DNA from: Nitrospira sp.
GTDB lineage: Bacteria; Nitrospirota; Nitrospiria; Nitrospirales; Nitrospiraceae
Direction: 5' to 3'
Length of the DNA: 47,817 nt
Assembly: GCA_003135435.1 (NCBI GenBank)
Contig: PLBR01000235.1
Location: 1-47,817, forward strand
The notes under the pieces were generated by a model, which was given only the letters and a program-made list of their open reading frames with translations, made no database searches and was not told the DNA's origin. The translations under genes were made by a program, and so were the position numbers. Shown here piece after piece: positions 8,673-33,675 of the stretch. Positions within the stretch are counted from its first letter, which is position 1. Each line of letters opens with the position of its first letter.

Positions 8673-8863
8673 TAGCAGGCTGCGGAAGACGATGTTGCCA
8701 CGCTAGACATGCGAGACAAGCGGGAAAGGCGCGACTGGCGTGACGAGCGAGATGGGCAAAACGAGGGGGGAGTCCAATCTGTCCACGTCGCACCTTTCGC
8801 GCATGTCTCGCGCTTCACGCGCCACACTCTGTGGCGCTGGCGAAATTTTTCAGCATCTTGTTA
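8673..8863. mobile_element. Palindromic element, TAGCAGG...CCTGCTA family, copy 1
   Basis: The left end is tagcaggctgcggaaga (8673 on) and the right end is tttttcagcatcttgtta (to 8863). The ends are imperfect inverted repeats of each other. The interior contains gcgagacaagcggg and, near the right side, catgtctcgcgc, a module seen in other intergenic repeats here. No open reading frame is present. It adjoins the truncated N-terminal side of the nuclease pseudogene. Confidence 0.65.
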
Positions 8864-8921
8864 GGCGCGTGAGCAGATTGTCTGATCCCGTCGCTCGCTC
8901 ACCGCTATGAGAAATACGGAC

Positions 8922-10340
8922 CTAGCGTTCGGCTTCCGTGAGATCGCCTGTCTCTTCCAGCTCTTCAAGATCGGCTTCCGCTTTCGCCTTCGTAGTTGAG
9001 GGATGCAGGCCATATTTTTTGAGCATTTTGTAGAAGTCTGCCCGATAGCGCCCGGCAAATTGAGCGGCGCGTGAGATATTGCCGCCGGTGAGTTGCAGGA
9101 CGTTCTTGAGATAGGTTTTCTCGAACTCTTCCTTTGCCTCAGTCAGCGGCTTGAGCGGCGCGTCCGGTGATGTACCCATAGAGGGCAGGAGGTCCGGCGT
9201 AATCATGTCTTGGCGCGTCATGACGGAGGCCTTTTCAATGACATTCTCTAGTTCGCGAACATTTCCGGGCCAGGGATGTGTGACCAGCCGATTGAGGGCG
9301 GCCGGTGTAAAGCCACGCAAGTCTTTATTTGCCCGTTTCGCACTCGCGATCAGGAAGTGCTGGGCCAACAAGGGGATATCATCTCGGCGGTCACGCAGAG
9401 GCGGGAGAAACAGCGGGACGACAGAGATGCGGTAGTACAGATCGTTCCGGAATGAGCCGTTCTTAACCGCTTCGCCGAGGTCTTTATTGGTGGCGGTAAT
9501 AATCCGTACATCGATCTTCGTTGAGATTTCAGATCCCACTTCGCGAATTTCCCGTTCCTGCACGGCCCGCAACAGTTTCACCTGCATCGAGAGCGGTAGT
9601 TCGCCGATCTCGTCGAGAAAGAGCGTGCCGCCGTTGGCACTTTGAAACAGGCCTCGCTTGGCGCCATGGGCGCTGGTAAACGCGCCGCGCACATGTCCAA
9701 AGAGTTCAGACTCGAAGAGCGTTTCAGGAATGGCCGCGCAATTGAGGGCGACAAACGGTCCTTTACTCCGTCGGCTGTTTGAATGGATCACACGTGCGAA
9801 CACTTCTTTGCCGGTCCCGGTTTCTCCGAAGAGAAGAATGGACGCATCGGAGTCTGCCACCTGCACCACTTGTTGGAGTAAACGCTGCATCGCAGGACTC
9901 CGCGCGACGATGTTTTCCATGCCATACAATTCGTTGACAAGAGACTTGAGTCGCTGGATCTCTCCTCTCATCCGTTGCGGAGAGAGCCCTTCTTCAATCT
10001 TGGACTTGAGTTCCTGGTCATCGAACGGTTTGGTGAGATAACCGAACGCCCCCCGCTGCATGGCTTCCACGGCATTGGGAATGCTGCCGTGGGCCGTCAG
10101 GATGATAACCGGAAGGCCTGGATGAATCCGCAGCAGTTCCTCCGTCACATCTAATCCGTCTTCGCTACCCAGCCGGAGGTCGGTGATGGCGAGGTCGAAC
10201 CGGTCCTTCTTGGCTGCGGCAAGGGCTTCACGTCCGGTGGTGCAGCCTGTGACGGCAAAGCCCATAGCGGTCAACCGCATCTTCACAAGATGTAACAGTC
10301 CCTCTTCATCGTCGACTACAAGAATATGTTCTTTTTCCAT
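8922..10340 (-). CDS. glrR: Sigma-54-dependent response regulator, GlrR/QseF type
   Basis: A 472-residue NtrC-family activator. The receiver domain spans residues about 5-115, with acidic pocket D10/D11, phospho-acceptor Asp54 (AITDLRLG) and Lys104. The AAA+ domain spans about 142-375, with Walker A GETGTGKE (172-179) and the sigma-54 contact loop GAFTSA (219-224), where the usual form is GAFTGA. A Fis-type HTH lies at about 420-450 (GNISRAAQFAGRYRADFYKM), followed by an acidic tail. Phosphorylation by the kinase at 11139-12611 should drive ATP-dependent opening of sigma-54 promoters. It is the last gene of a three-gene operon; AAGGAG sits 6 bases before ATG 10340, in the 10-base gap after the lipoprotein gene. 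The paralogue assignment rests on gene order. Confidence 0.9.
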   Translation of the reverse strand: MEKEHILVVDDEEGLLHLVKMRLTAMGFAVTGCTTGREALAAAKKDRFDLAITDLRLGSEDGLDVTEELLRIHPGLPVIILTAHGSIPNAVEAMQRGAFGYLTKPFDDQELKSKIEEGLSPQRMRGEIQRLKSLVNELYGMENIVARSPAMQRLLQQVVQVADSDASILLFGETGTGKEVFARVIHSNSRRSKGPFVALNCAAIPETLFESELFGHVRGAFTSAHGAKRGLFQSANGGTLFLDEIGELPLSMQVKLLRAVQEREIREVGSEISTKIDVRIITATNKDLGEAVKNGSFRNDLYYRISVVPLFLPPLRDRRDDIPLLAQHFLIASAKRANKDLRGFTPAALNRLVTHPWPGNVRELENVIEKASVMTRQDMITPDLLPSMGTSPDAPLKPLTEAKEEFEKTYLKNVLQLTGGNISRAAQFAGRYRADFYKMLKKYGLHPSTTKAKAEADLEELEETGDLTEAER

Positions 10341-10350
10341 GAAACTCCTT

Positions 10351-11142
10351 CTACGGTGTCATCGGTGTCATCGGTTCCGGCACAGTCGGAGGCGGTGCAA
10401 CCGTCGACGGGGGACGGATAGGACGAACCTTATCCCGCATTTCCTGGTCGATGCGCTTCAATGCTTCCAATTGGCTCGTCAATTCCTCTATTTTCCTATC
10501 CCGATCGGACAATTGCTTTTGTAAGGAAAGCACAATGCCTGTATCGGTTGAACCTCTTACGGTGTCTTTCTTACCGTTGGTCGAGTCGATCTTCCGTTCA
10601 CGCTCGGCTAACTCCCGCTGGAGGCTTTCCAGAGATTGGGAGTCGGCCTCCTTCATGGCCCGCAATTGCTGGATGGTCAGCTCTCTGTCAAGCAAGTCTC
10701 GCACCAGCCGATCTGAGGCCTGAGCCAGGATCGCCTGACTCTCCGAAATGGCCGGGGCTGCCACGACCGATTGGAACCAGGATTGCTCAACGGGAGCGGC
10801 GTGGTTCTCGACCAGTTCTAACCAGAGCTTACTGGAGGAGGCCAGCTGGCTCTTGGGCGCGGCGGCAATCACTTTCTCGAAGTACTTTGAGGCGCTATCT
10901 CGACTTTCGTAGAGCCCCAGCAGGGCACGCGTAAAGTAGACATGGTCGCAGGAGTTGTGCTCGGCACACTTCGGGACGAGCGCCTCCTGCTTTTTCGCCA
11001 ACGCATTGAGGGATTTTACCTCTCCCGCATCCACCTTGAAGTAGGGCTCCGAAAATTGCGGGGCTGGCGACCATGCCGCGCATCCAGCGAGGAATAGACA
11101 GGACAAGACTCCCGATGTGATGCCTCGGTGGACGGCCTTCAT
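10351..11142 (-). CDS. Lipoprotein between kinase and regulator, QseG-like position
   Basis: A 263-residue protein. ATG 11142 overlaps the kinase stop (ATGA) and is preceded by AGGAG. Lipobox LAGC with Cys21 as the lipidation site. Residues about 35-120 are helical and tetratricopeptide-like in feel (FTRALLGLYESRDSASKYFE). Residues about 155-235 are a coiled coil (LQRELAERERKI and LQKQLSDRDRKIEELTSQLE). The tail is Pro-rich (RPPSTVAPPPTVPEPMTPMT). In enterobacteria the glrK-qseG-glrR operon encodes an outer-membrane lipoprotein in the same place that acts on the kinase. The same role is inferred here from position, lipidation and the coiled coil; sequence similarity to QseG was not tested. 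Confidence 0.75.
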   Translation of the reverse strand: MKAVHRGITSGVLSCLFLAGCAAWSPAPQFSEPYFKVDAGEVKSLNALAKKQEALVPKCAEHNSCDHVYFTRALLGLYESRDSASKYFEKVIAAAPKSQLASSSKLWLELVENHAAPVEQSWFQSVVAAPAISESQAILAQASDRLVRDLLDRELTIQQLRAMKEADSQSLESLQRELAERERKIDSTNGKKDTVRGSTDTGIVLSLQKQLSDRDRKIEELTSQLEALKRIDQEMRDKVRPIRPPSTVAPPPTVPEPMTPMTP

Positions 11143-12611
11143 GCCGTTTCTCCTGGTTTTGTGAGGCGTAGGATAAATCGTACAGTCGTCCCCTTCTTGA
11201 CTTCGCTTTCGATCCAAATCCGTCCTCCGTGTGCTTCAACCACTTTTTTTGCCAGTGCCAACCCGAGGCCGCTCCCCGGCGTCGCATGTTTGGCCTTCGT
11301 GCGTCCTTGATAGAAGCGTTCGAAAATATAGGGCAGATCTTCGGCCTGAATGCCGGGTCCTCCGTCGGATACGCTCACTTCAAGGACTCCCGCTTTCGGG
11401 TCCGGCCTCATGAGTACTTTCACAATGCCCCCTTCCGAGCTGAACTTCAAGGCGTTTGAGAACAAATTGTCGAGCACCTGTTCAATCCGAAGCGCATCAG
11501 CCTTGACCCACACACGTTGTGCAGGCGCCTCCACCAACAGCTGCACATGCTTGGCATCGGCGAGGAGCCGGACTTTGTTGACCGACATATCAGTGATGCG
11601 CTTGAGATCCGTCGGGACGATTCGATACTCCATCATCCCAGCGTCCATCTTGGAGAGATCCAGAATAGTGGAGATGAGGGTGATGAGTCGGCGGCTGCTG
11701 TCCGCCATGATGCGCAAGGTCGTACGTTGTTCTTGCGACAATGGGCCTGGAATTTCATCCAACAGCAAATGGGTACCTTCTTGGATGGAGGCCATGGGTG
11801 TGCGTAATTCATGGGAGACATGGGCGAGAAACTCCCCCTTCATATCGTCCAACTCTTGCAGTTTTGTGCCCATCCAGTTTACGGCGTCAACAAGGTCTCG
11901 CAACTCACTGGGGGCTTGAATATTCAGGGACGCGCGGAAATTGCCCTGCCCGATCTGTTTGATATGGCTCTGCAATTGGCGAAGCGGGCGCAGGATCGTG
12001 TAGCTGGCAAAACCGGCGAGTGCAATGCCAAACACGAGCGCAAGCAGAACCAGTTGCTCAGTCACCGCTTCGGCTTGCGCCGAGCTCTCCCGTGACCGGC
12101 TGACGCCGACACTGATGCCCGTCTCGTGAAGATCGATAAACTGTTGGAGTGTGGCGCTGATGCGGTCCATCAAGGCGTCTCGCCGACCTTCATAGTCCAC
12201 AGACCGGGCCGCGGGAGACGCCACGCCATGCTCCAACTCTGTGTAGAAAATCGTGAGTCGTTCTTGCTGCAGGTGCTTGGTGTCCTCGATGAGCTGAATG
12301 CCTTGGGGAGTGAGCTCCTGTGTTTCAAGGCTGCGGAGCCCGCGATGGAATTCCTCGACCTCTTCATCGAAATGTTGCAAGAACGTGGCATCGCGTACGG
12401 CCAGATACTTCTTTTCGCTATTGAGTTGGGCATAAAGCACGGTGAGCAGACGTTTGGCCGATTCGATCGCCGGGTAATGATGAGTGGCCATGTTGGCACT
12501 CAATGCAGTCAACTGGCGCAGGTGAAACAAGGCATACAGATTCACCCCGGCCATCACCACGATGATGACGAGGGAGGTTAGGACGATTCGCCAGAAGATG
12601 GACAAATACAC
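11139..12611 (-). CDS. glrK: Membrane sensor histidine kinase, GlrK/QseE type
   Basis: A 490-residue kinase with a GTG start at 12611. TM1 is residues 7-29. A helical periplasmic sensor of about 150 residues follows, then TM2 (about 186-206) and a HAMP linker (LRPLRQLQSHIKQIGQGNFR). The dimerisation/phosphotransfer helix carries His267 (FLAHVSHELRTPMAS). An HATPase domain carries N-box (DNLFSNALKF), G1 (SDGGPGI) and G2 (GSGLGLALAKKVVEAHGG) motifs. The all-helical sensor resembles a four-helix chemoreceptor-type bundle. Its stop codon overlaps the lipoprotein start, so the three genes form one translationally coupled operon, with the kinase first. The cognate regulator is the sigma-54 activator at 8922-10340. 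Confidence 0.9.
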   Translation of the reverse strand: MYLSIFWRIVLTSLVIIVVMAGVNLYALFHLRQLTALSANMATHHYPAIESAKRLLTVLYAQLNSEKKYLAVRDATFLQHFDEEVEEFHRGLRSLETQELTPQGIQLIEDTKHLQQERLTIFYTELEHGVASPAARSVDYEGRRDALMDRISATLQQFIDLHETGISVGVSRSRESSAQAEAVTEQLVLLALVFGIALAGFASYTILRPLRQLQSHIKQIGQGNFRASLNIQAPSELRDLVDAVNWMGTKLQELDDMKGEFLAHVSHELRTPMASIQEGTHLLLDEIPGPLSQEQRTTLRIMADSSRRLITLISTILDLSKMDAGMMEYRIVPTDLKRITDMSVNKVRLLADAKHVQLLVEAPAQRVWVKADALRIEQVLDNLFSNALKFSSEGGIVKVLMRPDPKAGVLEVSVSDGGPGIQAEDLPYIFERFYQGRTKAKHATPGSGLGLALAKKVVEAHGGRIWIESEVKKGTTVRFILRLTKPGETA

Positions 12612-12824
12612 GAGTGAAGCTCTTTCTCAGCCTTGAGAAGCGAGGCTAACTGTAGAGACTGTAGGTAATTCCATACACTATTTTCCCGTGGCACTCAAGG
12701 GATCTGGCAAACAAGCTCTCTCGCAGATCATCCGCCCTTGTGGGGGGGTGAAAGGGCTAGGAAGGCTTGAGCGACTTCCGATCAGGAAAATCGGAAACTC
12801 TCTCCCTTTCCATTACACACGTCC

Positions 12825-13646
12825 CTACTTGAATGGCGAGACAAATCGGCGTTGGCGGCGTGACACCCCATGTAGCGATGCAAAGAGATGGCCACGAAAC
12901 AATAACATGGCCACGGCCAGCAGTGGCGTGAAGAGCAGCCCGATATACCAGCTGATTGAGGGAGGGATACCTATGAAGTCCAGCCAACTTCCGAAGATCG
13001 TGAAGGGCAGCACGAGGAGCTGGGAAAAATCTAAACCCGCCCCCCTGCCCACTCGACTGGAGAGGGAAAAAAATGATTGCAGCCCCATAGGCGAGAGGAC
13101 GACGGGGATCAGGATCAGCGCAAACGGAAGAAACCATTCTATCCAATTCTCAAGAACGAACTCGTACGAGGTCTTGAACACGTCGAGCTGGGAATCATGC
13201 CGTACTTGATAGATAATTTCCGGTGCCGGGTTCAGTAAGAGAAAGATGAGCAGAAGCGCCGCGTACGACAGGAGTTGCCCAAACGGGTTGGTCTGCATAC
13301 TCATGTCAAGAGCCATGAGCGGCAGCCACAGGATGAACCCAATGCCGATGACATCCCAAAAGTAGTGGCCAACGCTGCCAAGAATGTCGCGGAAGGTGAG
13401 TACCCGTGCATAGGTAATCGATTGCTCGATCAGGCTCAGGGTGGCGCCAACCAGGAGCGCATTCACCACGCCAAGCAGAAATCCTCCAGCCATGCCGAGC
13501 GGCGAGGCAATCTGGCCAGCGAGCACCAGCAGGAATCCAAATCCCACCACGGCCACTATGGTCATCCAGCCGCGAGCAAGGGACTCTCCAGTTTTGCGGA
13601 AGGCCTCCCGATAGAGTGCGAGTGTTTCTGTCAGAATTCGTGACAT
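12825..13646 (-). CDS. Multi-pass membrane protein of unknown function
   Basis: A 273-residue integral membrane protein. ATG 13646 is preferred over the upstream in-frame TTG 13655; no clear ribosome binding site is visible for either. Six or so hydrophobic segments are seen: about 25-45, 50-75, 95-115, 125-145, 170-190 and 230-255. Short polar loops lie between them, and the C-terminus is basic (VSRRQRRFVSPFK). The layout is like the DUF4013 or YciC-type membrane families, but no signature settles it. It is transcribed away from clpB. Function unknown. Confidence 0.75.
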   Translation of the reverse strand: MSRILTETLALYREAFRKTGESLARGWMTIVAVVGFGFLLVLAGQIASPLGMAGGFLLGVVNALLVGATLSLIEQSITYARVLTFRDILGSVGHYFWDVIGIGFILWLPLMALDMSMQTNPFGQLLSYAALLLIFLLLNPAPEIIYQVRHDSQLDVFKTSYEFVLENWIEWFLPFALILIPVVLSPMGLQSFFSLSSRVGRGAGLDFSQLLVLPFTIFGSWLDFIGIPPSISWYIGLLFTPLLAVAMLLFRGHLFASLHGVSRRQRRFVSPFK

Positions 13647-13703
13647 GAAAGACAATAGTCTGCGGGAACTTGTCGGGTCAAGCCAATGGACCCTCGCGGG
13701 AGG

Positions 13704-13747
13704 TTGACTTCCCAGATCCTATGCTTATGTACGTTGACAACGTCAAC
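13704..13747 (+). promoter_or_regulatory. Candidate clpB promoter with overlapping dyad
   Basis: TTGACT (13704-13709) and TATGTA (13726-13731) are spaced 16 bases apart, an acceptable sigma-70-like pair. The inverted repeat GTTGAC-aac-GTCAAC (13733-13747) covers the expected start point about 40 bases before the clpB ATG. It is not the CIRCE sequence bound by HrcA. Promoter and operator roles are inferred from position. Confidence 0.4.
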
Positions 13748-13773
13748 ACATCCGAGTGGAGAGGAGTGGTCCG

Positions 13774-16368
13774 ATGGACATGAATCGCATGACGATCAAA
13801 CTACAAGAGGCGCTCCAGACCGCGTCGTCTCATGCCACGAGGCGGAATCATCAGGGAATAGATGTGGAGCACCTTCTGCTTGCGTTCGTGGAACAGGATG
13901 GAGGTCTCGCGTCCTCTCTCCTCGAACAGGCAGGATTGTCCGTGCCCTCCGTTCGCCAGGGGGTGGAGCAGGCACTCGCGAAGTTGCCTCAAGTACAGGG
14001 CGCCGGGGCAAGCCCTGGACAACTCCATGTCGCCTCGCGGCTCAGCCAAGTCTTGGCCAAAGCCGAAGACGAACAACGAGCGTTGAAAGACGACTATCTC
14101 AGTGTCGAACATGTCATCCTCGCCATGGTCCAAGAAGGGGGCGTCTTCAAAAAACTTGGCCTGACGAAGGAACGGCTCTTGGGCGCGCTGCAACAAGTAC
14201 GAGGGTCTCAACGTGTCACGAGCCAGGACCCGGAAGGCACCTACCAGGCTTTGGAAAAATATGGTCGCGACCTCACCCGGTTGGCAGGGCAAGGGAAACT
14301 GGATCCCGTCATTGGGCGCGATGAGGAAATTCGTCGCGTCGTCCAAATTCTCTCACGACGAACCAAGAATAACCCGGTGCTCATCGGCGAACCCGGCGTC
14401 GGGAAAACGGCCATCGTCGAAGGGCTAGCCTCTCGCATTATCAAAGGAGACGTGCCTGAAGGACTGAAAAAGAAGCGCGTCATCACTCTCGACATGGGAT
14501 CGTTGGTGGCCGGCGCGAAGTTTCGCGGCGAGTTCGAAGAACGATTGAAGGCGGTCCTCAAAGAGGTGCAGGCGGCAGAGGGGCAAGTCTTGCTCTTCAT
14601 CGATGAGCTGCATACGGTCGTGGGAGCGGGGGCCGCAGAAGGGGCGATGGACGCCGCCAATCTGCTCAAGCCCATGCTGGCCCGCGGCGAACTGCATTTG
14701 ATCGGCGCGACGACACTGGATGAATATCGGAAACATATCGAGAAGGATGCCGCGTTGGAACGGCGGTTCCAGACGGTGCTGGTCAAGCAGCCGACGGTGG
14801 AGGATACCATCTCGATTCTGCGCGGACTCAAGGAGCGCTACGAAGTGCACCATGGCGTGCGCATCAAAGACGCCGCGCTGGTTGCTGCAGCAAAACTCTC
14901 GAATCGGTATATCGCCGATCGCTTTCTCCCGGACAAAGCCATCGATCTGGTCGATGAATCGGCGGCCAGCCTGCGTACGGAAATCGATAGTTTGCCGGCG
15001 GAACTCGATGAAGTCTCCCGCAAGGTGATGCAGTTGGAGATCGAGCGGGAGGCCTTGCGGAAAGAACAGGATCAGGCCAGTCGGGCGCGGCTAGCGACGC
15101 TTGAGCAAGAGCTGGGTGAGAAACAAGGAGAGCTTCAAGCGCTCAAGACGCGATGGGACTCGGAAAAAGCCTCGGTGTCTCGGCTGCGCAAGACTCGAGA
15201 AGCGATGGAAGAAGTCAAACAGGCGATGGAGCGGGCGGAACGTGCCTACGATTTGAATCGTGTGGCGGAGCTGCGATACGGAGAGTTGCCCCGGCTTGAG
15301 CGGGAACTGGCGTTGGAGCAGGAACAGCTCGGCAAGAAACAGGGCGAAAGCCGGTTGCTCAAAGAAGAGGTCGATGAAGACGACATCGCAGCCATCGTGA
15401 GTCGCTGGACGGGAATCCCCGTCGCTCGACTGGTCGAAGGTGAAACGGAGAAGCTCTTAAAGCTGGGTGAACTGCTTCATCAGCGCGTAGTCGGCCAGGA
15501 CGAAGCGGTGCAGGCAGTCGCAGATGCGGTCCTCCGCGCGCGCTCCGGCATCAAAGACCCGAATCGGCCCATTGGTTCGTTTCTCTTTCTCGGTCCGACC
15601 GGAGTCGGAAAAACCGAGTTGGCGAGGGCCCTTGCCGCGACGCTCTTCGATGACGACGCCAACCTGATTCGGATCGACATGTCCGAGTATATGGAGAAAC
15701 ACACGGTGGCCCGTCTGATTGGGGCTCCGCCAGGCTATATCGGCTATGAAGAGGGCGGACAACTGACCGAAGCTGTCCGACGGCGTCCGTTCTCCGTCAT
15801 TCTGTTCGACGAGATCGAAAAAGCCCATCACGACGTCTTCAATGTCTTGCTCCAAGTGTTGGACGACGGACGATTGACGGATTCTCAGGGCCGGACCGTT
15901 GATTTCAAGAACACGGTGTTGATCATGACGTCGAACATCGGCAGCCCGCAGATTCTTGAGGCGCAGCAACGACACGCCTCCTATGACGAAGTCTGTTCCC
16001 TCGTGATGGCGGAACTACGGGAGCACTTCCGCCCGGAATTCTTGAATCGCGTCGACGAGACAGTGGTGTTCCATCCGCTGGAGACGGAGCAGCTTACGAA
16101 GATCGTGGAGATTCAGCTCGAGCGGTTGCGGGCACGTTTGACAGAGAGACGAATTTCTCTCTCCGTGACGCCTGCGGCCTTGCGGTATCTGGGGGAGCGC
16201 GGCTACGATCCGGTCTACGGAGCGAGACCGCTAAAGCGATTGATCCAACAGGAAATTGAAACGCCGATGGCGCGTCAATTGGTCAAGGGCGAATTGCGCG
16301 ATGGAGATACGGCGACCGTGGAACTGAAAGATCAGCATATCGTCATCGTGCCGATGGTCGCGGGATAG
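13774..16368 (+). CDS. clpB: ATP-dependent disaggregase ClpB
   Basis: An 864-residue Hsp100 chaperone, full length for the family. ATG 13774 is chosen because AGGAG lies 8 bases upstream; a GTG 18 bases earlier is in frame but has no ribosome binding site. The Clp-N repeats cover about 1-145. The first AAA+ domain has Walker A GEPGVGKT (205-212), and [10 protein letters not shown] follows its Walker B. A ClpB/Hsp104 middle coiled coil spans about 400-520. The second AAA+ domain has Walker A GPTGVGKT and [11 protein letters not shown] Clp C-terminal domain ends the protein. It threads aggregated proteins through a hexameric pore in cooperation with DnaK/DnaJ/GrpE, none of which is in the window. 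It appears to be monocistronic, with a repeat element starting just after its stop codon. Confidence 0.97.
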
Positions 16369-16369
16369 G

Positions 16370-16574
16370 ACGCTGCAGAAATGCCAGCTCACCACAGCAG
16401 AACTACAATGGCCTGCAAGTCTGGGACATGAGTAGAATATCCCCGCAGGATGCTCAAAAGGTCCGTCCAGCAAGGCCGTAGCGAGTGAAGATCCGAAGGC
16501 GTACCCTCTGGGGTACGTTGAGGGTCTGAACGATGCGAGAACGCCGCTGGCGGACGTTTTCAGCATCCTGCTAG
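16370..16574. mobile_element. Palindromic element, TAGCAGG...CCTGCTA family, copy 2
   Basis: This begins right after the clpB stop with cgctgcagaaatgcc, which matches the left end of copy 3 (ggctgcagaaaaacc). It has an inner boundary cgcaggatgctcaaaagg (16444 on) and ends gttttcagcatcctgctag (to 16574). The interior holds a hairpin CGTACCC-tctg-GGGTACG and arms gtccgtccagc / gctggcggac. No frame is present. It may double as the clpB transcript end. Confidence 0.65.
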
Positions 16575-16590
16575 GACGCGTCGCCCTCTA

Positions 16591-20878: not shown

Positions 20879-20950
20879 AGTCGTCGAACAGTCCGTGAGG
20901 GTGAGAAAACTGTAGCCGCCATCGAACGCGGGGTCAACTAAAACTCGACC

Positions 20951-21281
20951 CTAGCAGGCTGCAGAAAAACCATTTCGGCATAGCAGGACTTCGATAATCT
21001 GTACGTCTGGGGCAAGAGCAGAACACTCACGCAGGATGCTCAAAAAGGCCAGACTTCTCACCCACCCAACCCTGGCAGTTATTTCACCCTCCCGCCCTGA
21101 GTCTGCCAAGACAGCCTCTTCACCCTATGACGCGGCTTCGCGGCTGACCCTCGTTTCACTTTTCACGCCTCGCGTCTTACGGTTCCTCTGAGCGATGGGA
21201 GAACGCTGCATGGGAACAGGCGCGTCTCGGCGCGCCAGGGTTCGGCGGGGGAGAAGAACGACTTTTTCAGCATCCTGCTAG
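20951..21281. mobile_element. Palindromic element, TAGCAGG...CCTGCTA family, copy 3 (composite)
   Basis: The left end is ctagcaggctgcagaaaaac, an inner boundary gcaggatgctcaaaaaggcc lies at 21031-21050, and the right end is tttttcagcatcctgctag. The right 64 bases match the left end of copy 4 in inverted orientation at roughly nine bases in ten. The internal boundary suggests one element inserted in, or fused to, another. No coding frame is seen. Confidence 0.7.
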
Positions 21282-21392
21282 CAGCCGGATTGACAGCCCG
21301 ACGGCCTGGTCCCTATAGTACGCGCGCGTTGTATCAGCCCTACCTGAAGAAGGGACCCCCCGCAAAGCTTTGAGGGAGAAGAGATTATCGCA

Positions 21393-23751: not shown

Positions 23752-23922
23752 CTAGCAGGATGCTGAAAAAGCCTCTTTTCTCACCCGCCCAACCCTGCGC
23801 GCCGAGACGCGCCTTTCACCAGGCATCGTTCTCGCGTCGCTCAGAAGCTCAACGTACCGAAGCTACGCCTCGCCTCTTCGCTCGCTGCGGCCTTGCTGAA
23901 CGGCCTTTTTGAGCATCCTGCG
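23752..23922. mobile_element. Palindromic element, TAGCAGG...CCTGCTA family, copy 4
   Basis: The ends ctagcaggatgctgaaaaag and cctttttgagcatcctgcg are near-perfect inverted repeats. The interior includes ttctcacccgcccaaccctg, shared with copy 3. The left tip overlaps the ribosome binding site of the DUF423 gene, so the element also carries or borders that gene's 5' region. Confidence 0.75.
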
Positions 23923-24488
23923 TGACTTTATCCTATTGTCCTGGAAATAGAGACCACTCAATTTTCACCGTGCCACAACAGTTGTTCCGGAGACTCCTGA
24001 TCCTCATTACTCATAACGGTTCGCCGCGAAATCTCCCGAAAGAACGTTCCTCGTGAAACGTGAAGTGGAACATATCTGACGATCTGTCGATCTGATGATT
24101 GGTCGGAAACTCAACAGGTCAACAGGTCAACAGATTCCGGAATTGCTTCACGAACGACGCTTCACACGCAAGTGCAGCGGATCGGCGATTGTAGCAGAAG
24201 CGCTCATGGATAATGTGGGCCAAGTCTCGATATGCCTCTCGAATGCCCCCGCTGCACATTGACCAATTCTGATTCCACTCCCCCCTGCTCATATGGGTAT
24301 GATCTGACCCTGCAGATCCGCAAAGCAACGGATCGCTCTGATGAGTTGATTTAATGGGAACGTTTCCATAGGTCGTGCGTAGGTGCAGGAGATACAGACA
24401 GTTACCCGTACACCACTATTTCGGGTAAGGCCCCCCACCTCTTGAGGAATAGCCAAGCACCCCTTTCCCATACTACCCTGCGCATAAC
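23923..24488. other. Gene-free stretch with a solo repeat end
   Basis: No supported gene. A 69-codon minus-strand frame (24119-24328) has no ribosome binding site. The part at 24199-24226 (gctcatggataatgtgggcc) resembles the end of the element at 24863-25081 (ttcatgaataatgcaggcta), so this may be a decayed copy. A short tandem tcaacaggtcaacagg occurs at about 24112-24130. Confidence 0.45.
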
Positions 24489-24866
24489 ATGATGGCTCAA
24501 GGGACACAACAGACCTGGTGGGATAGTCCGAAGTTTACTATTGACTGCGTGCTAGCGAACGTAAGCAAGCAGCTTGAAGCGGACGGGTGCGTCCTCGAAT
24601 GCTTAGAGGGTGGGCATAAGCTCACCACCCCTGATCACCTGAGAGCAGGGGATTTCGTGAAAGTCCAATTATGGTTGGAAGGCGAGGAGGCCTTTATAGA
24701 TATCCGGCTGGCGGAAGTCAGAAAGGTTCACGACCACTGGATCACGGTGGAAGTGATCCAGGTGAGCCCAAATGACCGGATGAGATTGAAACGATTTATC
24801 GATGCCCCCGCAACCATGCACATCGAAAAACCTGCTCTCATCGACCATCTTCTCATTCGGGCCTAG
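24489..24866 (+). CDS. PilZ-like domain protein (atypical)
   Basis: A 125-residue protein. The beta-barrel pattern of PilZ domains is visible: DGCVLECLEGGHKLTTPDHL, then AGDFVKVQLWLEGEEAFIDI, then AEVRKVHDHWITVEVIQVSP, and a terminal helix NDRMRLKRFI. PilZ domains bind cyclic di-GMP through an N-terminal RxxxR and a D/NxSxxG motif. Neither is present here, so nucleotide binding is doubtful and the protein may be a structural or partner-binding variant. Two tandem ATGs start the frame; no Shine-Dalgarno sequence is seen. The TAG stop lies within the tip of the following repeat element. Confidence 0.65.
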   Translation: MMAQGTQQTWWDSPKFTIDCVLANVSKQLEADGCVLECLEGGHKLTTPDHLRAGDFVKVQLWLEGEEAFIDIRLAEVRKVHDHWITVEVIQVSPNDRMRLKRFIDAPATMHIEKPALIDHLLIRA

Positions 24867-25081
24867 CCCGCATTATTCATGAAGCTTCTGCTGCAAGCGC
24901 GGATGCCTGTCTCAAGCGAGACGGGCGAGACGGGGGAGGGTTGATCTGGTTCATCTGGTCTATCTGGTTCAACCAAACAAACGAGATAAACCAGATAAAC
25001 TAGAGAGACCAGCCGGTGCTCGCGCTCCTCGCGCGCCACTCCGCCATTTCGCGACGCACCTTCATGAATAATGCAGGCTAG
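24863..25081. mobile_element. Palindromic element, CTAGCCCGCATTATTCATGAAG family
   Basis: The left end ctagcccgcattattcatga (then ag) and the right end cttcatgaataatgcaggct (then ag) are 22-base inverted repeats with one mismatch. The interior has a gcgagacgggcgag module and a hairpin whose arms are 9-base tandem repeats: atctggttc/atctggtct/atctggttc on the left (24944-24970) and gataaacca/gataaacta/gagagacca on the right (24985-25011). No frame. The first TAG is the stop codon of the upstream gene. Confidence 0.75.
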
Positions 25082-25612: not shown

Positions 25613-25646
25613 GGCGCAAACAGCCTAGCAAGAAGCTGTTTGCGCC
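25613..25646. repeat. Perfect 12-bp hairpin beside the element
   Basis: ggcgcaaacagc (25613-25624) and gctgtttgcgcc (25635-25646) are exact inverted copies with a 10-base loop. It lies downstream of the YtxH gene (minus strand), without a T-run, so it may be an mRNA stabiliser, or part of the neighbouring element or its insertion target. Confidence 0.6.
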
Positions 25647-25677
25647 ACAGGTCTGGCCGCTGAGTGAGCCACTCCAA

Positions 25678-27093: not shown

Positions 27094-27452
27094 GGCATCT
27101 CCTCGTCATCCAGCCCGACATGGTGTCCGAGTTCATGGACGACCGTGTCGCGGACCTCGTGAATGACTTCGGCCTTCGTCCGGCAGAGACGCAGGATGGG
27201 GCCTCGATAGATGGCGATACGGGCAGGCAGTTCACCAGCAGGCTGGAAAAAAGATGACTGATCAATCGGGACGCCTTGATACAGACCCAGCAGATCGTCT
27301 TCTGATTCCAGTTCAAGATCCTGCAGAACATCGGATGACGGTTCCTCTTCAACCACGATGGATACCTCATCGGCGAGCGTTGCGAAGCGGGCTGGCAGTC
27401 CAGCGAGTGCCTCTTGGATCCAGGCGTCGAATTCTTCCGGCGAGATAGTCAT
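27087..27452 (-). CDS. Minimal zincin-like metallopeptidase-family protein
   Basis: A 121-residue protein from ATG 27452; GTG 27473 is an alternative start. The C-terminus carries HEVRDTVVHELGHHVGLDDE, an HExxHxxG-like zinc site written HELGHH. This matches the short possibly proteolytic 'zincin-like' family (PF06262), whose members are 110-140 residues long. The rest fits the family: FDAWIQEALAGLPARFATLA at the start and ARIAIYRGPILRLC before the zinc helix. It is cytoplasmic, with unknown substrate. It is convergent with lgt. Confidence 0.88.
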   Translation of the reverse strand: MTISPEEFDAWIQEALAGLPARFATLADEVSIVVEEEPSSDVLQDLELESEDDLLGLYQGVPIDQSSFFQPAGELPARIAIYRGPILRLCRTKAEVIHEVRDTVVHELGHHVGLDDEEMPY

Positions 27453-27647
27453 TGGATGTTTAGATCGTGGCACCGTTCTGGTCCCTCGCGATGTCTATCA
27501 CTCAGTTCTCCCGAGCAACAACTTGACGATCACACCGATCACAAAGCCTCTCAGGAGAAATACGTCCTCCCAGTACACCAAAATGCATCTACGCCGCACA
27601 TAGGATTTGGACTCGGTTAAGGGGGCTAGGTCACAACAGCAGCGACT

Positions 27648-30600
27648 TCACACGCTAAGCTGTTCAAGGACTGTTTTAGCCTCAATCAAGTCGAGGTTGT
27701 CGACGCCTTCGGTGAATCTGGAGTACACGGCCTTCAAGATGCGTGTGGCCTCATCCACTTTATTTTGTTTCCTCCAGAGCCTAGCCAGGCTCGTGGCGGT
27801 TCGAAGTTCAAACATTTTTGCATGCTGATCTTGCGCAATCTTCAAGGCTTCACACAAACACTGTTCTGCTGCCTGGACGGAGGGGTCGGATTGTGCGAGC
27901 AGCAGTTCGCCCTTCAGACGAAGCAGTTCCGCTTGCCAAAACAGTTCTCCCCCAGTTGCAGCAAACTTCTGCGCTTCCTCAATTGCGCCCAAGCCTTCGT
28001 CAATGCGTTTGTGTCGTAAATATATTTCTGCAAGCAAAGCCAATGTAAAAGTGCTGTTGAGACCTGCACCTGTGACTCGAATAGCGGAAAGTCCGTGTAT
28101 TAACTTACCGAGACCTTCCTCTTGCCCATTTTCGGCCAAAGCCCATCCTTGAAAGGTCGTCGCCAATGCCAAACCCAATTCAAATGAGTATTGCGTTGAA
28201 ACCGCAATGGCTTCGTCGGCAAGCTCCAGCGTTCTCTTCGCATTGCGGAAAGTGGAATAGATCCAGGAAAGATAAACTAAGGTAATAACTCGAGTGAATG
28301 GGTGTTCCAACTCCCTCGCCATGCCAATGACCTCCAGCGCCAGCGTTTCAGCTTGCTCAACCTCGCCTAATATCCACAATGTCCTGGCCAGGTAACTCGC
28401 CGCGGTTATCCCGGGATCTTGGGCATAGAGAAAGGCATGTGAGCGGTGTTGATTCGGATCATACAGGGATTTTGCGGTAATCAGATGGGTTCGTGCTTCA
28501 TCAAACCGACCGAGGTAGAAATAGGTCGTACCCAAATTCCGGTGAGCTTCAATCAGTAGATCCGAGCTTTGCTCGTGGTTAGCCAGAGCGAGGAGATTTT
28601 CGGCTAGGCCGCGAGCATTGGCGAGTTGCCCTCTGACCAGATGGAATATCCATAATCCCCAAATGGCGCGAAACTGATGCAGGGAACCGCTGTTCTCCTG
28701 TGACAACTCCATCGCCCTTCGATAATTGTGTTCCGTTTCGTCGGATGCATATCCTTTTACGGACACCAAGGGGACTCCGCGTGCAATGAGGAGGTCCAAC
28801 TCCAGGGCATTACGTTCCTGGCCTTGCGGCAGATCCGTTAGCAAATCTAGCGCCCTATTATAATGACTGAGCGCTTCGATATTGGCTGATCGTTCCGCAT
28901 CTCTGCGAGCTGCAAGTTGCCAATAATCAATTGCCTGACCGGTCAATCCTGCCTGTTCATAGTGATAAGCCAGGAGCTCCGGTTCCATTTTTACCCTCTC
29001 GGGGAACCTGCTCTCCAGCGTTTTGGCAATTCGCGCATGGAGTACTCGCCGAGGTTTCTTGGGGAGGGTGCTGTAGGCAGCTTCTTGGACTAGAGCATGC
29101 TTAAAGTGGTATGTCGCAAGGGGTATCTCGCCCTCTTGGAAAATGAGCCCGGACGCGACGAACCGGTCGAGCGCTTGCCTCAACTGGCTGTCCGGCATTT
29201 CGACCGTGGCCCGTAACAGCTCGTAGCTGAATTCACGTCCGATCGCTGCTCCGGTTTGGACAATCTCTTTGGCCGGCCCCAATCGGTCCACCCGTTCCAT
29301 GAGCAACGCGTGCAGATTGTCCGGAATGGGCAATTCCTTTAATGTGGCCTTCAAGGTAAATGCATCGTTGTTCTCAGTCAGCAGCCCGGATTCCAGCACA
29401 TTTTCCGTCAACGCTTCGATATAGAGAGGCACGCCATCGGCCTTCGCCAGAATCGCCTGCTGCACCTCGGGCGGCAGCGTTTTCCCTCCTGTCATCGTCG
29501 CCATGAGTTCAGCACTCTGCCGACGTGGAAGCCGGCTCAGCGTCAGAAACGTCACGTGACTATAGTCCGCCCACACCGGCTTGAAGTCGGGGCGAAAGGT
29601 GATCAGCACCAACACGCGCATCTGCCGAATGCGGTCAATGATTCGCGTCAGGAGGTCCAGCGTCGTGGGATCTAGCCAATGGGCATCTTCCACAATGAAC
29701 AACAGTGGACAGCGATCGGCCAGCCTTTGTAGATGATGCACGAGGGCTTCCAGCGTCATTTCCTTGCGTTTTTCGGATGACATAGTGAGCGGCGGGTACC
29801 GGTGATCTCCTCGAATCGAGAGTAGATCTGCAAGCAATGACACCGTGTCCTGGTTATCAATTCCGCTTTCGCGAGCCATGACGTCGAGTTTATTCAGTTG
29901 CGCCTGGGCACTGTCCTGACTGGCGAGTCCCGCTGCCTGCCGCAGAAAATTGATCGCCGGATAGAGCGCCGTATTGGTATGGTACGGTGAACAGTGAAAT
30001 TGAATCGTCTGGTACCGTTCATCGGCGAGGCGGTCACACAGACTATGAGTCAGTCTCGATTTTCCGATGCCGGCCTCACCACACAGGAGCACGACCTGTC
30101 CTTCGCCGCCGACGGCTTCGCGCCAGCGACCCACCAGGAGTGCGAGCTCCTGCTCTCTGCCGACGAAATTGGTTAAGTGGCTGGCTCGATGGGACTCAAA
30201 CCGGCTGGCCGACAATCTGATACTCAATACCTGCCAGGCTTGGACGGGTGTATCGAACCCTTTCAGCGACACGACGCCAAGATCCGCGAACTCGAACTCA
30301 TGTCCGACAAGACGTTTCGTCACCGGGTCTATGACTATCTGATTGGGTTGTGCCAGTGCTTGGAGGCGAGCGGCAAGATTCGGGGTTTCGCCGAACACTG
30401 ACCGTTCCTTGGCGGTGTCCTGCCCCATCAGTTCGCCGACGACGACGTGACCCGTCGCGATCCCGATGCGTGCTGCAAGACTAACCCCTGGATGGGGAGT
30501 GTCGTGATTGAGCGCCGTCACCGTATCCAGAATCGCCAGTCCGGCATGGACCGCGCGTTCCGCATCGTGTTCGTGAGCCTGGGGGTACCCAAAATAGACC

Positions 30601-31040
30601 AACATCCCATCACCCATGTATTTGGCGATATAGCCATTGAACCGACCAACCGCTTGGCTACAGGCGTCTAAAAAACGTCGGACCACATCCTGGAGGTCTT
30701 CAGGGTCCACCCGGCGAGACAGCGCGGTCGAATCCACCAGATCACAAAACATCACCGTCAACTGGCGCCGTTCGGCTTGCTCTCGCTCGAGAGGGACTGG
30801 CGGCGTGTCCAGACTGACGCCAAGGGGGAGAGACCCCGGGCCCCTACCTTCAGCGCTCGGTGACAATTGCGCGATCGCGCGCAAGAGTGTTTTTCGATGT
30901 CCCAGTAAGACACCCAGCGCCTCCAGGTCGCTCTCCTTCAGCTCGGGTAGTACATCCCACGTGATCGCATTGTGCTGAAACGCCTCAGAGTATCTCCCGA
31001 GACCAAGGTTATCCAGCCACGCTGATACACGATCATTCAT
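27648..31040 (-). CDS. SAM / class III adenylate cyclase / ATPase / TPR regulator
   Basis: A 1130-residue multidomain protein. Residues 1-60 are a SAM domain (VSAWLDNLGLGRYSEAFQHN). Residues about 90-270 are a class III nucleotide cyclase with both metal-binding aspartates (MFCDLVDST, Asp100; YMGDGMLVYFG, Asp144) and NLAARLQ at the substrate end. Residues about 290-560 are an AAA-like ATPase of the STAND type, with FVGRE at its start, Walker A GEAGIGKS (321-328) and VEDAHWLDP as Walker B. The rest, to 1130, is a TPR superhelix. The arrangement suggests a sensor that gates cAMP (or cGMP) synthesis by ATP-dependent assembly. The ligand is unknown. It is a single gene, and no partner regulator is adjacent. 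Confidence 0.93.
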   Translation of the reverse strand: MNDRVSAWLDNLGLGRYSEAFQHNAITWDVLPELKESDLEALGVLLGHRKTLLRAIAQLSPSAEGRGPGSLPLGVSLDTPPVPLEREQAERRQLTVMFCDLVDSTALSRRVDPEDLQDVVRRFLDACSQAVGRFNGYIAKYMGDGMLVYFGYPQAHEHDAERAVHAGLAILDTVTALNHDTPHPGVSLAARIGIATGHVVVGELMGQDTAKERSVFGETPNLAARLQALAQPNQIVIDPVTKRLVGHEFEFADLGVVSLKGFDTPVQAWQVLSIRLSASRFESHRASHLTNFVGREQELALLVGRWREAVGGEGQVVLLCGEAGIGKSRLTHSLCDRLADERYQTIQFHCSPYHTNTALYPAINFLRQAAGLASQDSAQAQLNKLDVMARESGIDNQDTVSLLADLLSIRGDHRYPPLTMSSEKRKEMTLEALVHHLQRLADRCPLLFIVEDAHWLDPTTLDLLTRIIDRIRQMRVLVLITFRPDFKPVWADYSHVTFLTLSRLPRRQSAELMATMTGGKTLPPEVQQAILAKADGVPLYIEALTENVLESGLLTENNDAFTLKATLKELPIPDNLHALLMERVDRLGPAKEIVQTGAAIGREFSYELLRATVEMPDSQLRQALDRFVASGLIFQEGEIPLATYHFKHALVQEAAYSTLPKKPRRVLHARIAKTLESRFPERVKMEPELLAYHYEQAGLTGQAIDYWQLAARRDAERSANIEALSHYNRALDLLTDLPQGQERNALELDLLIARGVPLVSVKGYASDETEHNYRRAMELSQENSGSLHQFRAIWGLWIFHLVRGQLANARGLAENLLALANHEQSSDLLIEAHRNLGTTYFYLGRFDEARTHLITAKSLYDPNQHRSHAFLYAQDPGITAASYLARTLWILGEVEQAETLALEVIGMARELEHPFTRVITLVYLSWIYSTFRNAKRTLELADEAIAVSTQYSFELGLALATTFQGWALAENGQEEGLGKLIHGLSAIRVTGAGLNSTFTLALLAEIYLRHKRIDEGLGAIEEAQKFAATGGELFWQAELLRLKGELLLAQSDPSVQAAEQCLCEALKIAQDQHAKMFELRTATSLARLWRKQNKVDEATRILKAVYSRFTEGVDNLDLIEAKTVLEQLSV

Positions 31041-31151
31041 AATGGATACAGTCGATGGTGGATATTCCAGCCTGTGAAGGATAGGATTAACTGCGTTAAG
31101 CGTAGGAGATTACTCGTTGCGGGGAGTAATCCTTCAAGCAATGATACACGT

Positions 31152-31328
31152 ATGATGAACAGCGCTTCCACGAATACGATCCCGGAACGGCCTTTCATTC
31201 GACAGCTGGAGCGCTGGCTGGTCGGCCTGGCGATGATGGTCATCGCGTACCTGCTTGAGAAAGCCGTGTTACGTTCGATCAGGCGCAATGGCACGAAGTC
31301 TTCGTCGCGGGACCGCACTGCATCGTAA
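31152..31328 (+). CDS. Candidate small membrane protein
   Basis: A 58-residue frame from ATG 31152. One hydrophobic segment is flanked by basic residues (RQLERWLVGLAMMVIAYLLE then KAVLRSIRR), a believable single-pass membrane protein. No strong ribosome binding site is seen. It lies in the 300-base gap between two minus-strand genes, on the opposite strand, and ends 13 bases before the end of the UspA-ABC1 gene. A real gene is plausible but unproven. Confidence 0.4.
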   Translation: MMNSASTNTIPERPFIRQLERWLVGLAMMVIAYLLEKAVLRSIRRNGTKSSSRDRTAS

Positions 31329-31341
31329 ACCATTGTCATCT

Positions 31342-33426
31342 TCAACGCCCTCGCAGCAGATCGATCACCAGGCCAACGGTCAGTAGACCGGCGACGACTC
31401 CGAATGTTATCGGTACCCACTCTGCCACACCCGTCGCCATGACCGTGAGTCCGCTGGCCAGGACACTTGCCGCAGCGGTCAGGCCGAGCGCCAGACGCCG
31501 TCCCGTGCGGCGCACCATATCCTCCAGCGAATTGGCCCGGAAGTTCACCACAAGCTTTTGGCCAGGGCTGGCACCGATGAGGTGTTCGACCGCCTCGATC
31601 ACGCGCAAAGCCCGTACTTTAAACTTTTGCGCTTGATACACCAGTGTCTTCGGGTTGAGCGTAGCACCCATGCGCTTGACCACCCAGCGCGTCAAGAACT
31701 TGCCGGCTATGTCGTAAGGATCGAGTGCTGGATCGAGATCTGCAGTCGCCAGTTGTACCTGCGCGAGGGCCTTGATGGCGAGCGTGAGCGAGGCCGGTAG
31801 CGGGACCCCATGCCGTAACGAGACCGCACTCATTTCTTGCAGAATGGGCCCGATCTGCATCTCAGCCAGCGCGGCCGTGCGATATTTCACCATGACTTCC
31901 GCGATCTCGCTTTGGAATCGAGGCACATCGAGATCGTTGCAATCGATGGCGCCCGTCATCATCAGTGTGATATCGGTGACAAACGCAGCATCTTCCTGCC
32001 ACAGCGCCATCAACAATAACAACAGATGCTCGCGGAAGTCGGCTCCTACCTCGCCGACCATCCCGAAATCGAGAAAGTAGACGCGGTTCTTCCACCACAT
32101 CAGGTTGCCTGGGTGGGGATCGGCATGGAAGAAGCCATCGACGATGATCTGTTTGTAATAGCTCTCCAGCAGTTGACGGGCGGCCTGGATGCGCTCTGGA
32201 CCTGCCGGTGCCTGCTTGATCGGTATGCCCTGGATCTCTTCCATCACCAATAATCGGGACGTGGAGAGATCCCGGTACACGCTGGGTACGGCAAGGCGAT
32301 CATAGCCTGCGAGCACACCCTGCATCCGCCCGATGTTGTCGGCCTCCTGACGGAAGTCAAGTTCACGGTGGAGCGAGGTGGAGAGGTGCTTGAACACGGC
32401 CTCCATATCAATCACCCGATTGAGCGCGGGACGCTTTCCGACTTTCTCGGCAAACACCTCGAGCAGGGCGAGGTCCTGTTCGATTTCAGCACGAGCGGTG
32501 GGTCGCTGAACCTTGACGACAACCCGATCACCGTTTTCGAGTGTCGCACGGTGGACCTGAGCGATTGTGCCGGCGGCGAGGGGACTCGGATCGATCGACT
32601 TGAACACATCTTCCCACGGTACTCCCAATTCCTGCTCCGAAACCCGGACCACGTCGCGCTCAGTCATGGGCGGCACGTGGCTCTGCAACAGGGCAAGTTC
32701 CTCAATGTACTCTACCGGAAGGAGATCCGGGCGGGTTGATAACACTTGTCCGAGTTTCGAGAATGTCGGACCCAGCTCTTCCAGGGCCGTGCGTAAGCGC
32801 TTGGCCTGCTGACGGCGGATGGTCGTATCCGGTTCGTCGGATTGGCCGAACAGCTCTGTGAGGCCATGTTTCGCCATCACGGTTGCGATTTGCGTAGCGC
32901 GCGCTACCAGCCGAGGCTCAAAAGGCGGAATGTCACCCTTCGGTCGGTGAGCTTGCACCGAGTCCGATCCAGGCTCACCAGTAGATGACAAGGTGTTCAC
33001 GATAATCACGGTGCAGCGGGCATTGTGACTGATGCGGTTCGGTACGTTGCCGAGCAAAAACTCCTTTCGTCCCGCCATGCCAAAATTGCCGACCACCAGG
33101 ACATCGATGGCCTCCTGCTCAACGGCGCGGACGATCGCCAATGCCGGATCGACATCAATAACGACCAGGGCATGACCGCGCTCCTCGGCGACCTGCCGCG
33201 CGAAGCCCGCCAGTTCATTCTTGGCGGTAGCAGCGCGTGTTTGTTCGGCTGCGCCGAATTCTGTGGCGGACGGATACTGCGGAACCACTACCTGTACCAC
33301 GAACAGCTCTGCGTCGTAGCGATCGGCGAACCCGGCGGCCCAGTGGACGGCCTGGTCGGCGGGTTCGGAGCGGTCGGTGCCTACCATCACGCGCCGTATG
33401 GCGTGACTTTTTAGATGCTTTTCCAT
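31342..33426 (-). CDS. UspA - ABC1 (UbiB-like) kinase fusion protein
   Basis: A 694-residue protein. Residues about 9-148 are a universal stress protein domain (VMVGTDRSEPADQAVHWAAG). Its ATP-binding end reads GNFG, nine residues, then GN, close to the G-x2-G-x9-G-(S/T) motif. Residues about 175-600 are an ABC1/UbiB atypical kinase: KLGQ with LSTRPDLLP, AAGTIAQVHRA (the Ala-rich loop that replaces the Gly-rich loop), VVVKVQRP, DFRQEADNIGRM, FHADPHPGNLM and VYFLDFGMVGE. The C-terminus has two membrane helices (ALGLTAAASVLASGL and ITFGVVAGLLTVGLVIDLL). UbiB proteins support ubiquinone or lipid handling at the membrane. The fused UspA domain could sense adenine nucleotides or stress. The fusion is visible directly; its function is inferred. 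Confidence 0.92.
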   Translation of the reverse strand: MEKHLKSHAIRRVMVGTDRSEPADQAVHWAAGFADRYDAELFVVQVVVPQYPSATEFGAAEQTRAATAKNELAGFARQVAEERGHALVVIDVDPALAIVRAVEQEAIDVLVVGNFGMAGRKEFLLGNVPNRISHNARCTVIIVNTLSSTGEPGSDSVQAHRPKGDIPPFEPRLVARATQIATVMAKHGLTELFGQSDEPDTTIRRQQAKRLRTALEELGPTFSKLGQVLSTRPDLLPVEYIEELALLQSHVPPMTERDVVRVSEQELGVPWEDVFKSIDPSPLAAGTIAQVHRATLENGDRVVVKVQRPTARAEIEQDLALLEVFAEKVGKRPALNRVIDMEAVFKHLSTSLHRELDFRQEADNIGRMQGVLAGYDRLAVPSVYRDLSTSRLLVMEEIQGIPIKQAPAGPERIQAARQLLESYYKQIIVDGFFHADPHPGNLMWWKNRVYFLDFGMVGEVGADFREHLLLLLMALWQEDAAFVTDITLMMTGAIDCNDLDVPRFQSEIAEVMVKYRTAALAEMQIGPILQEMSAVSLRHGVPLPASLTLAIKALAQVQLATADLDPALDPYDIAGKFLTRWVVKRMGATLNPKTLVYQAQKFKVRALRVIEAVEHLIGASPGQKLVVNFRANSLEDMVRRTGRRLALGLTAAASVLASGLTVMATGVAEWVPITFGVVAGLLTVGLVIDLLRGR

Positions 33427-33481
33427 AGACGTAGATAACCTTTTAGCAAGAACAGAATCGGCATTACAGGATCAATGACTG

Positions 33482-33675
33482 TAGCAGGATGCTGAAACAT
33501 TCTGCCAGCCTGTCTTGTTCATTTGGTCTGTCTGGTCCATCTGGTCTCTCTGGTTAGTCTGGTTCAACCAAATAGACAAGACGGACCAAACAGACGAGAC
33601 AGACCGGGCTTGTCCCAGAGAGGCAGGCCAGCGAAACTCTGCTGTGCCGAAATAGTTTTTCCGCAGCCTGCTAGA
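33482..33675. mobile_element. Palindromic element, TAGCAGG...CCTGCTA family, copy 5
   Basis: The ends tagcaggatgctgaaacat and gtttttccgcagcctgctag are inverted repeats. The core is a hairpin made of five 9-base units on the left (tttggtctg, tctggtcca, tctggtctc, tctggttag, tctggttca; 33522-33566) and complementary units on the right (33567-33604). The right tip ctag contributes the stop codon of addA. Confidence 0.75.

Follow-up and report, generated by a model that had tools for sequence, protein, structure and literature searches.

The 47,817-nt contig PLBR01000235.1, from a Nitrospira genome (the window, that is, the whole stretch of DNA analysed here), carries five short palindromic sequences, and it raises the question of what these sequences are, how they reached their positions, and whether any part of them is kept by selection. 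A first-pass annotation read them as either MITE-like non-autonomous mobile elements or REP-type palindromes and expected a large genome-wide family. The results indicate, with a probability that we put at roughly 0.75, that they belong to a large Nitrospira family of MITEs that has unlike left and right ends, makes a 4-bp YTAR target duplication, would be mobilised in trans by transposases of the IS5 type, and contains, in many copies, a core probably selected in the form of one strand.

The ends are far more abundant than in controls. In the window, the 18-base end has 9 matches with up to 3 mismatches, as compared with 0.05 expected from 100 shuffles; in the 4.34-Mb host genome (254 contigs), it has 463 matches, as compared with 1 for the reversed pattern, in agreement with the expected large family. 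The possibility that the ends occur at the five places only is contradicted by searches of other genomes with up to 2 mismatches: every one of the 31 other genomes of the genus that were searched yields between 13 and 302 matches, five genomes from other genera of the same family have 4 to 23 matches each, and end matches occur in 18 of 24 genomes from the order's remaining families; there, a count of one or two is close to what the reversed-pattern control gives (0 or 1). The ranks of the comparison genomes (Nitrospira, Nitrospirales, Nitrospirota) were inferred from the records nearest to one window protein, the nearest named records being Nitrospira MAGs, with RSF8 first at 86% identity.

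The anatomy of the elements was defined on 447.8 kb from the host, a figure that includes the window, together with 400 kb from a relative, G027; these stretches contain 184 clusters of end-like sites, 74 of them with more than one site. The first-pass annotation was right that imperfect terminal repeats are shared, but the sites represent not one motif but two related ends and a third, internal copy. The right end reads CAGGATGCTGAAAAAGTCCGCCAGC, the left end reads CAGGCTGCGGAAAAACTATT, and the motif inside the element reads GCAGGATGCTCAAAAAGGCC; the left end CAGGCTGCGGAAAAAC differs from the right end CAGGATGCTGAAAAAG. The 74 multi-site clusters comprise 17 in the order left-internal-right, 28 internal-right, 8 left-right, and 21 in other arrangements. 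Left and right ends point inward in the 17 left-internal-right and the 8 left-right clusters, and in 14 of the former 17 the gap from left end to internal motif is 75-77 bp. Among end pairs within 5 kb, 63 of 73 span 128-346 bp; the elements are about 130-350 bp long and gene-free. Long end pairs (957-3457 bp) were considered as autonomous copies and rejected, their frames being ordinary-gene-like and none transposase-like by eye. The space between the internal motif and the right end is occupied by a folded core about 130 bp long, by hairpins made up of 9-bp repeats like GGTCTATCT (by eye), or by other palindromic modules, which in some cases sit in the core's tip (by eye).

At 24863-25081 the window also holds a copy from another MITE-like family, whose ends are CCCGCATTATTCATGAAG; CTAG flanks this copy on either side. 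In 848 kb of host and G027 sequence, the 15-base end of this family has 37 matches with up to 2 mismatches, some of them chance-like, and ten end pairs lie 167-302 bp apart. Its member in the window and element 5, described below, have interior GGTCTATCT-type 9-bp repeats in common. Hairpins of 9-bp units (GGTCTATCT, GGTTCATCT) are found in both families (window 33516-33605 and 24930-25019) and also, without a right end, after clpB in at least four relatives (L207, L208, L209, L210).

All five annotated copies are present in the window, with slightly shifted borders, and, as annotated, no gene-sized mobile-element frame was noticed inside them. Element 1 (8673-8864, + strand) has the left end TAGCAGGCTGCGGAA, the reverse complement of TAACAAGATGCTGAAAAA as right end, TTAG on both sides, and an interior of degenerate 9-bp repeats that by eye resemble GCGAGACGG. 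A 240-bp direct repeat (5844-6086 and 8391-8634, 2.5 kb apart, with stretches 86% and 96% identical) stops about 40 bp before element 1. Element 2 (16366-16574, + strand), which starts at 16366 rather than at 16370, comprises a degenerate left end (TAGGACGCTGCAG, 5 of 19 bases off), a folded core (16443-16573, + strand; 144 bits, as compared with 33 bits for the opposite strand), and a right end; its left end coincides with the end of the ClpB gene (13756-16368, + strand), whose stop codon, the TAG at 16366-16368, is also the terminal TAG of the element. Element 3 (20952-21281, + strand) has a left end, an internal motif at 21029, a right end, and CTAG on both sides. It lies between two divergent genes, with outward promoter-like sites at 20909-20937 (- strand) and 21290-21319 (+ strand).

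Element 4 (about 23752-23999, - strand) has a genuine right-type end at 23753-23770, but what had been taken for its second end, at 23906-23923, is the internal motif. A tentative left end, degenerate (5 of 19 bases off) and with no YTAR outside it, lies 76 bp beyond the internal motif at about 23981-23999; the folded core is at 23799-23923 (- strand; 63 bits), and the element lies 12 bp upstream of the first ATG of a DUF423 frame. Element 5 (33482-33674, - strand) has its right end at 33482-33499, its left end at 33655-33673, and an interior hairpin of 9-bp repeats (GGTCTGTCT units); the TAG stop codon of a UvrD-like helicase gene (33671-37021, - strand; stop at 33671-33673) is its terminal TAG. 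In a relative (L118), the UvrD-like gene has the same stop, and an element starts at that stop. Within that RSF8 record, at L118 6308-6720, the end of the UvrD-like gene is repeated after a scaffold gap, with and without the start of the element, perhaps as a strain variant or an assembly slip. No folded core is recognisable in elements 1, 3, and 5 with a covariance model at E 1e-4.

Target-site duplications, which the first-pass annotation had proposed as a check, were sought in 36 full elements from the window, the host and G027 stretches, and related loci. Nineteen of the 36 are unscorable, intact NTAN being missing from one side or the other. In the 17 that can be scored, identical flanking 4-mers are found in 13 (CTAG 8, CTAA 3, TTAG 1, TTAA 1), as compared with 6.3 in shuffles, none of 20000 of which scores as high; in the remaining 4, the flanking 4-mers are mismatched. 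The target duplication is 4-bp YTAR. Empty sites give the same picture at individual loci. The site of element 2 is empty in G014, G006, and G030, which read GGGATAGGACGCG, where the window has GGGATAG, then 206 extra bases ending in CTAG, then GACGCG; the 4-mers of this element, ATAG on the left and CTAG on the right, are an imperfect duplication. Candidate empty sites for five elements show a 4-base overlap of the flanks in three (element 3, in four relatives; a G030 copy; and one more) and no overlap in one, the fifth being uninformative because its end position was set wrongly. The site of the G030 copy is empty in G006 and in the window, both of which read CTAG there; the empty-site 4-mer of element 3 has diverged in the relatives and is no longer YTAR (GTTG in G008). 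Three genomes at a greater distance (G011, G002, and G009; loci L214, L216, and L213) also have elements close to or exactly at the clpB stop codon, so that this site is empty in nearer relatives and occupied in more distant ones, a pattern that either an old shared insertion followed by precise loss or repeated insertion could produce. We conclude that the copies inserted as MITEs with a 4-bp duplication.

YTAR targets are used by the IS5 group, and insertion sequences of related genomes connect the elements with that group. L103 (in G015) carries on both sides a 19-base end, TAGCAGGCTGCGGAAAAAC, that is identical at 19 of 19 positions to the consensus left end, and L111 (in G008) has ends TAGCAGGCTGCGGAAAAAC, one of them with TAA for TAG; the proteins of both belong to the IS5 family (NCBIfam NF033581; 280 and 267 bits, cut-off 140). 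A transposase-bearing element with the same ends, which the first-pass annotation had suggested looking for, is found in this way for the left end in related genomes, but, among the loci searched, neither in the host nor for the right end. In line with the annotation of no transposase for the elements in the window, a search of its contig (C37) for PF01797 and PF01609 transposases finds none, and among the 3 PF01609 proteins, the 7 PF01797 proteins, and the relatives of L080 in the host, none has the exact element ends. L080 itself, which comes nearest, is a host transposase gene in an element with TAGCAGGCTGTTGACAAAC at both ends; its protein is near but under the IS1182 and IS5 cut-offs. In the genus, 13 of 32 genomes have matches to this protein (E 1e-5), several of them fragments, and such matches are far fewer than the elements. 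No insertion sequence among the part examined has the right-end motif on both sides; the nearest to the right end is one end of L089, from another genus, with one base different in the 18-mer, and, in the subset of insertion sequences compared, the right end differs from the L103 end. The paired ends in a preferred order, the target duplications, the empty sites, and the insertion sequences with an identical end support the MITE alternative of the first-pass annotation. From the identity of the left end, we infer that IS5-family DDE transposases whose elements end in TAGCAGGCTGCGGAAAAAC would move the gene-free elements in trans into YTAR.

The position of the elements relative to genes, which were called with our own script, shows an excess at stop codons. 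Of the 74 multi-site clusters, 71 lie outside genes or at stretch edges, although the coding share of the sequence is 77%; unpaired end matches, which are partly chance, fall inside called genes in 60 of 110 cases. Intact TAG/TAA ends coincide exactly with the stop codon of the incoming gene in 29 of 94 cases in a first set and, in a repeat with an independent 387 kb of the host genome, in 12 of 37, giving a pooled 41 of 131, an excess over the share of extragenic YTAR sites that are stop codons, estimated from site counts at about 17% (P 6e-5). In 34 full elements, irrespective of the state of the ends, 15 of 68 ends are at a stop codon. Of 28 abutting genes, 10 were tested, for the most part larger ones, and Pfam domains are present in every one of them; the clpB and UvrD-like stops are the genes' own, as relatives show. 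An apparent bias of right ends toward stop codons in the first set (27/68 vs. 2/26, P 0.0024) failed to repeat in the second (8/22 vs. 4/15, P 0.72; pooled P 0.008) and was dropped. The simplest account of the stop-codon excess would be that insertion there is harmless, because YTAR includes TAG/TAA and the duplication restores the stop codon.

Neither the stop-codon coincidence nor the conservation of a folded core figures in the first-pass annotation. The consensus of the core is GCAAGGCSGCAG - stem - GAGGCGUAC - loop - GUACGUUGAG - stem - CGASAACGNNGC, and its internal loops are GA-rich. Twenty-six cores of 125-132 bp were aligned by MAFFT, and in 25 of them the left-to-right strand is the better folded one (mean -68.2 vs. 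-59.2 kcal/mol). G-U pairs occur on this strand, as do GA/GA internal loops judged by eye. In this unfitted alignment, from which the structure was itself predicted, 17 of 37 pairs show two-sided changes. A wider alignment was made from 54 of 60 fetched loci and two host-genome stretches, and six opposite-strand rows were left out of its final, structure-fitted form. In the 58-sequence structure-fitted alignment, 91.2% of cells pair, two-sided changes are seen in 31 of the 37 pairs, and covariation scores 0.480, as compared with 0.170 when shuffled and at most 0.117 when partners are slid, values that hold for an alignment fitted to the structure. The strand preference extends to single loci: the L248 element has a score of 139 bits in one orientation, as compared with 33 bits in the other. 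We infer that the core is kept by selection on a single-stranded form. That form is most likely RNA, predicted to be a 3'-end or terminator-like structure, and less likely single-stranded DNA, since the ends and duplications are of the DDE type, which needs no folded strand. Against an RNA role, cores in tandem operons show no significant preference for the sense strand (17 vs. 24, P 0.35), and a scan for intrinsic terminators, whose loop limit of 8 excludes hairpins of this kind, does not flag the elements. No known RNA family accounts for the core: Rfam at gathering scores finds nothing but tRNAs in the window and in five loci, and it has no match for element 2 up to E 1.

The core is more widely distributed than the ends that carry it in Nitrospira. 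In 0.83 Mb of the host genome it occurs at 50 distinct places (57 matches, 7 of them to the other strand). Within the order, 60 of 61 genomes have a match to the core model (E 0.001), several of them one match each, and within the phylum 135 of 295 do (E 1e-4); these E-values are rough, and sequences were inspected for part of the more distant matches. A second covariance model, built from 58 sequences and run on 50 genomes reached through the search with the window protein, matches 6, one of them Nitrospira and the others 5 of 49 (4 of the 49 being labelled no finer than "bacterium"); in the other 44 of the 50 the core was not found at 1e-4, a result that doubles as a control. Two of the five non-Nitrospira genomes have a single weak match. 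The remaining matches are in two deltaproteobacterial genomes, with 3 and 12 (best E 5e-12 and 4e-15), and in one Syntrophomonadaceae genome, with 5 (best E 1e-10). The vehicles differ among hosts. Among copies outside the genus, a right end of CCTG then YTA is kept in 13 of 54. In G044, from another family, the core lies in elements that begin with GGGCCTGTTGAATA and end with CAACATTCCC; in a sample of 23 of 66 matched copies, from which 10 were dropped because the end pattern missed an end, identical 5-mers lie outside 9 of 13 elements, as compared with a shuffle mean of 0.68 and a maximum of 7 in 20000, and the target duplication there is therefore 5 bp rather than 4-bp YTAR. The right end in G044, GGGAATGTTGAAAAA, and that of the present elements, CAGGATGCTGAAAAA, are alike at 11 of 15 positions (counted by eye). 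Given this resemblance, either the core stayed in one lineage of elements whose transposase and ends were replaced, or it was captured repeatedly.

Two other accounts of the origin of the elements can be set against these data. Chance similarity or an assembly artefact has a negligible probability: several contigs do end inside the motif, as draft assemblies do at repeats, and the L118 copy contains a scaffold gap, but the shuffle and reversed-pattern controls and the genus-wide presence of the ends oppose both possibilities and rule out chance similarity. The REP-type alternative of the first-pass annotation, in which the elements would be REP/BIME palindromes moved as single-stranded DNA by a REP-associated Y1 transposase (RAYT), is improbable. 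The strand specificity of the core is what such a mechanism would lead one to expect, and the host has 7 PF01797 (Y1) matches, 6 of them above the cut-off; but the duplications co-vary on both sides, the empty sites have a 4-base overlap, and an element lies in the fetched flanks (about 1.5 kb) of just 2 of the 7 Y1 loci, which we estimate to be about chance at this density. To our knowledge, Y1 enzymes make neither target duplications nor empty sites with 4-base overlap. The target duplications and the Y1 gene context speak against a RAYT as the mobiliser, and a MITE family probably mobilised by IS5-type transposases is the preferred account.

Two further explanations concern the function of the elements and the status of the core. 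One holds that the elements are mainly bidirectional terminators or protectors of mRNA 3' ends and are kept for that purpose. The contact of intact ends with stop codons is consistent with this, as are the A- and T-tracts that most rows from distant relatives have at the hairpin base. However, the 41, 13, and 12 clusters that lie in tandem, divergent, and convergent gaps, respectively, are about in proportion to gap length, which shows no terminator-like preference for convergent gaps; the right-end bias did not repeat; and the stop-codon excess follows equally from neutral survival of insertions that do no harm. We regard this explanation as rather unlikely. Somewhat more credible, while still the lesser possibility, is that the core forms a structured RNA family of its own, captured by, or switching between, different types of MITE, the ends being secondary. 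Favoring it are the different ends and 5-bp duplication of the same core in G044, the low retention of the right end outside the genus, and the matches in Deltaproteobacteria and Syntrophomonadaceae; against it, the residual resemblance of the G044 right end is explained as well by divergence of a single lineage, and, where copies were viewed in numbers, the core is repeated rather than a single-copy gene. Taking the MITE family as the vehicle, we tentatively propose, at a little under even odds, that an undescribed, widespread fold of about 130 nt is a passenger in MITEs with different ends and duplications, that it has used more than one transposase, and that its single-stranded form is selected, in Nitrospirota, Deltaproteobacteria, and Syntrophomonadaceae. 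The fold would act single-stranded, most likely as RNA, as a stable, perhaps terminator-like, 3' structure.

Bacterial MITEs are commonly known from one species or genus. In the present case, compensatory change has preserved a folded core across families of one phylum, with sporadic occurrences outside it, while the ends and the duplication differ, and it can now be tested whether a non-autonomous element survives through a benefit of its single-stranded fold to itself or to its host. Contact with stop codons provides a simple account of how a 4-Mb genome can bear hundreds of insertions. The core deserves an RNA-family model for use in annotation. The spread of the elements and the role of the fold are both now open to testing. 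No published description of these elements is among the literature matches listed, in a search with subscription journals and supplements outside its scope: the excerpted text of a report on two Nitrospira genomes mentions CRISPR as the only repeats (PMC5767232), that of a REP survey lists Nitrospira moscoviensis (PMC12306157), and that of a study of stem-loop families names neither Nitrospira nor Geobacter (PMC2267715).

Comparison with known systems places the elements nearest to IS5-derived MITEs. They are like REP/BIME sequences with a RAYT in being extragenic, palindromic, and present in hundreds of copies, and unlike them in having target duplications, DDE-type ends, and no association with Y1 genes (2/7 loci). 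Correia, RUP, BOX, and ERIC sequences are small mobile intergenic repeats able to form RNA hairpins, BOX being modular as well, and they are set apart, by description, by ends and hosts other than those of the present elements. Small mobile repeats of bacteria have been reviewed (PMC2229807, excerpted text). Among the multicopy intergenic sequences of Geobacter metallireducens is a family of 24 with a central GRCGTAGCGCTGCTACGCC palindrome, proposed to be a short RNA and reported as well for two other Geobacter and for Desulfotalea (PMC2700814). That family resembles the present elements, by description only, in being repeated and intergenic, and it could possibly be related to the core; mobile ends are not described for it in the excerpted text (PMC2700814). 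With MITEs derived from the IS5 family, the elements share a short gene-free form, terminal inverted repeats, and a 4-bp YTAR duplication, and IS5-family elements of related genomes have ends identical to the left end here; they differ from such MITEs in having unlike left and right ends, a third, internal motif, and, in many copies, a strand-specific core.
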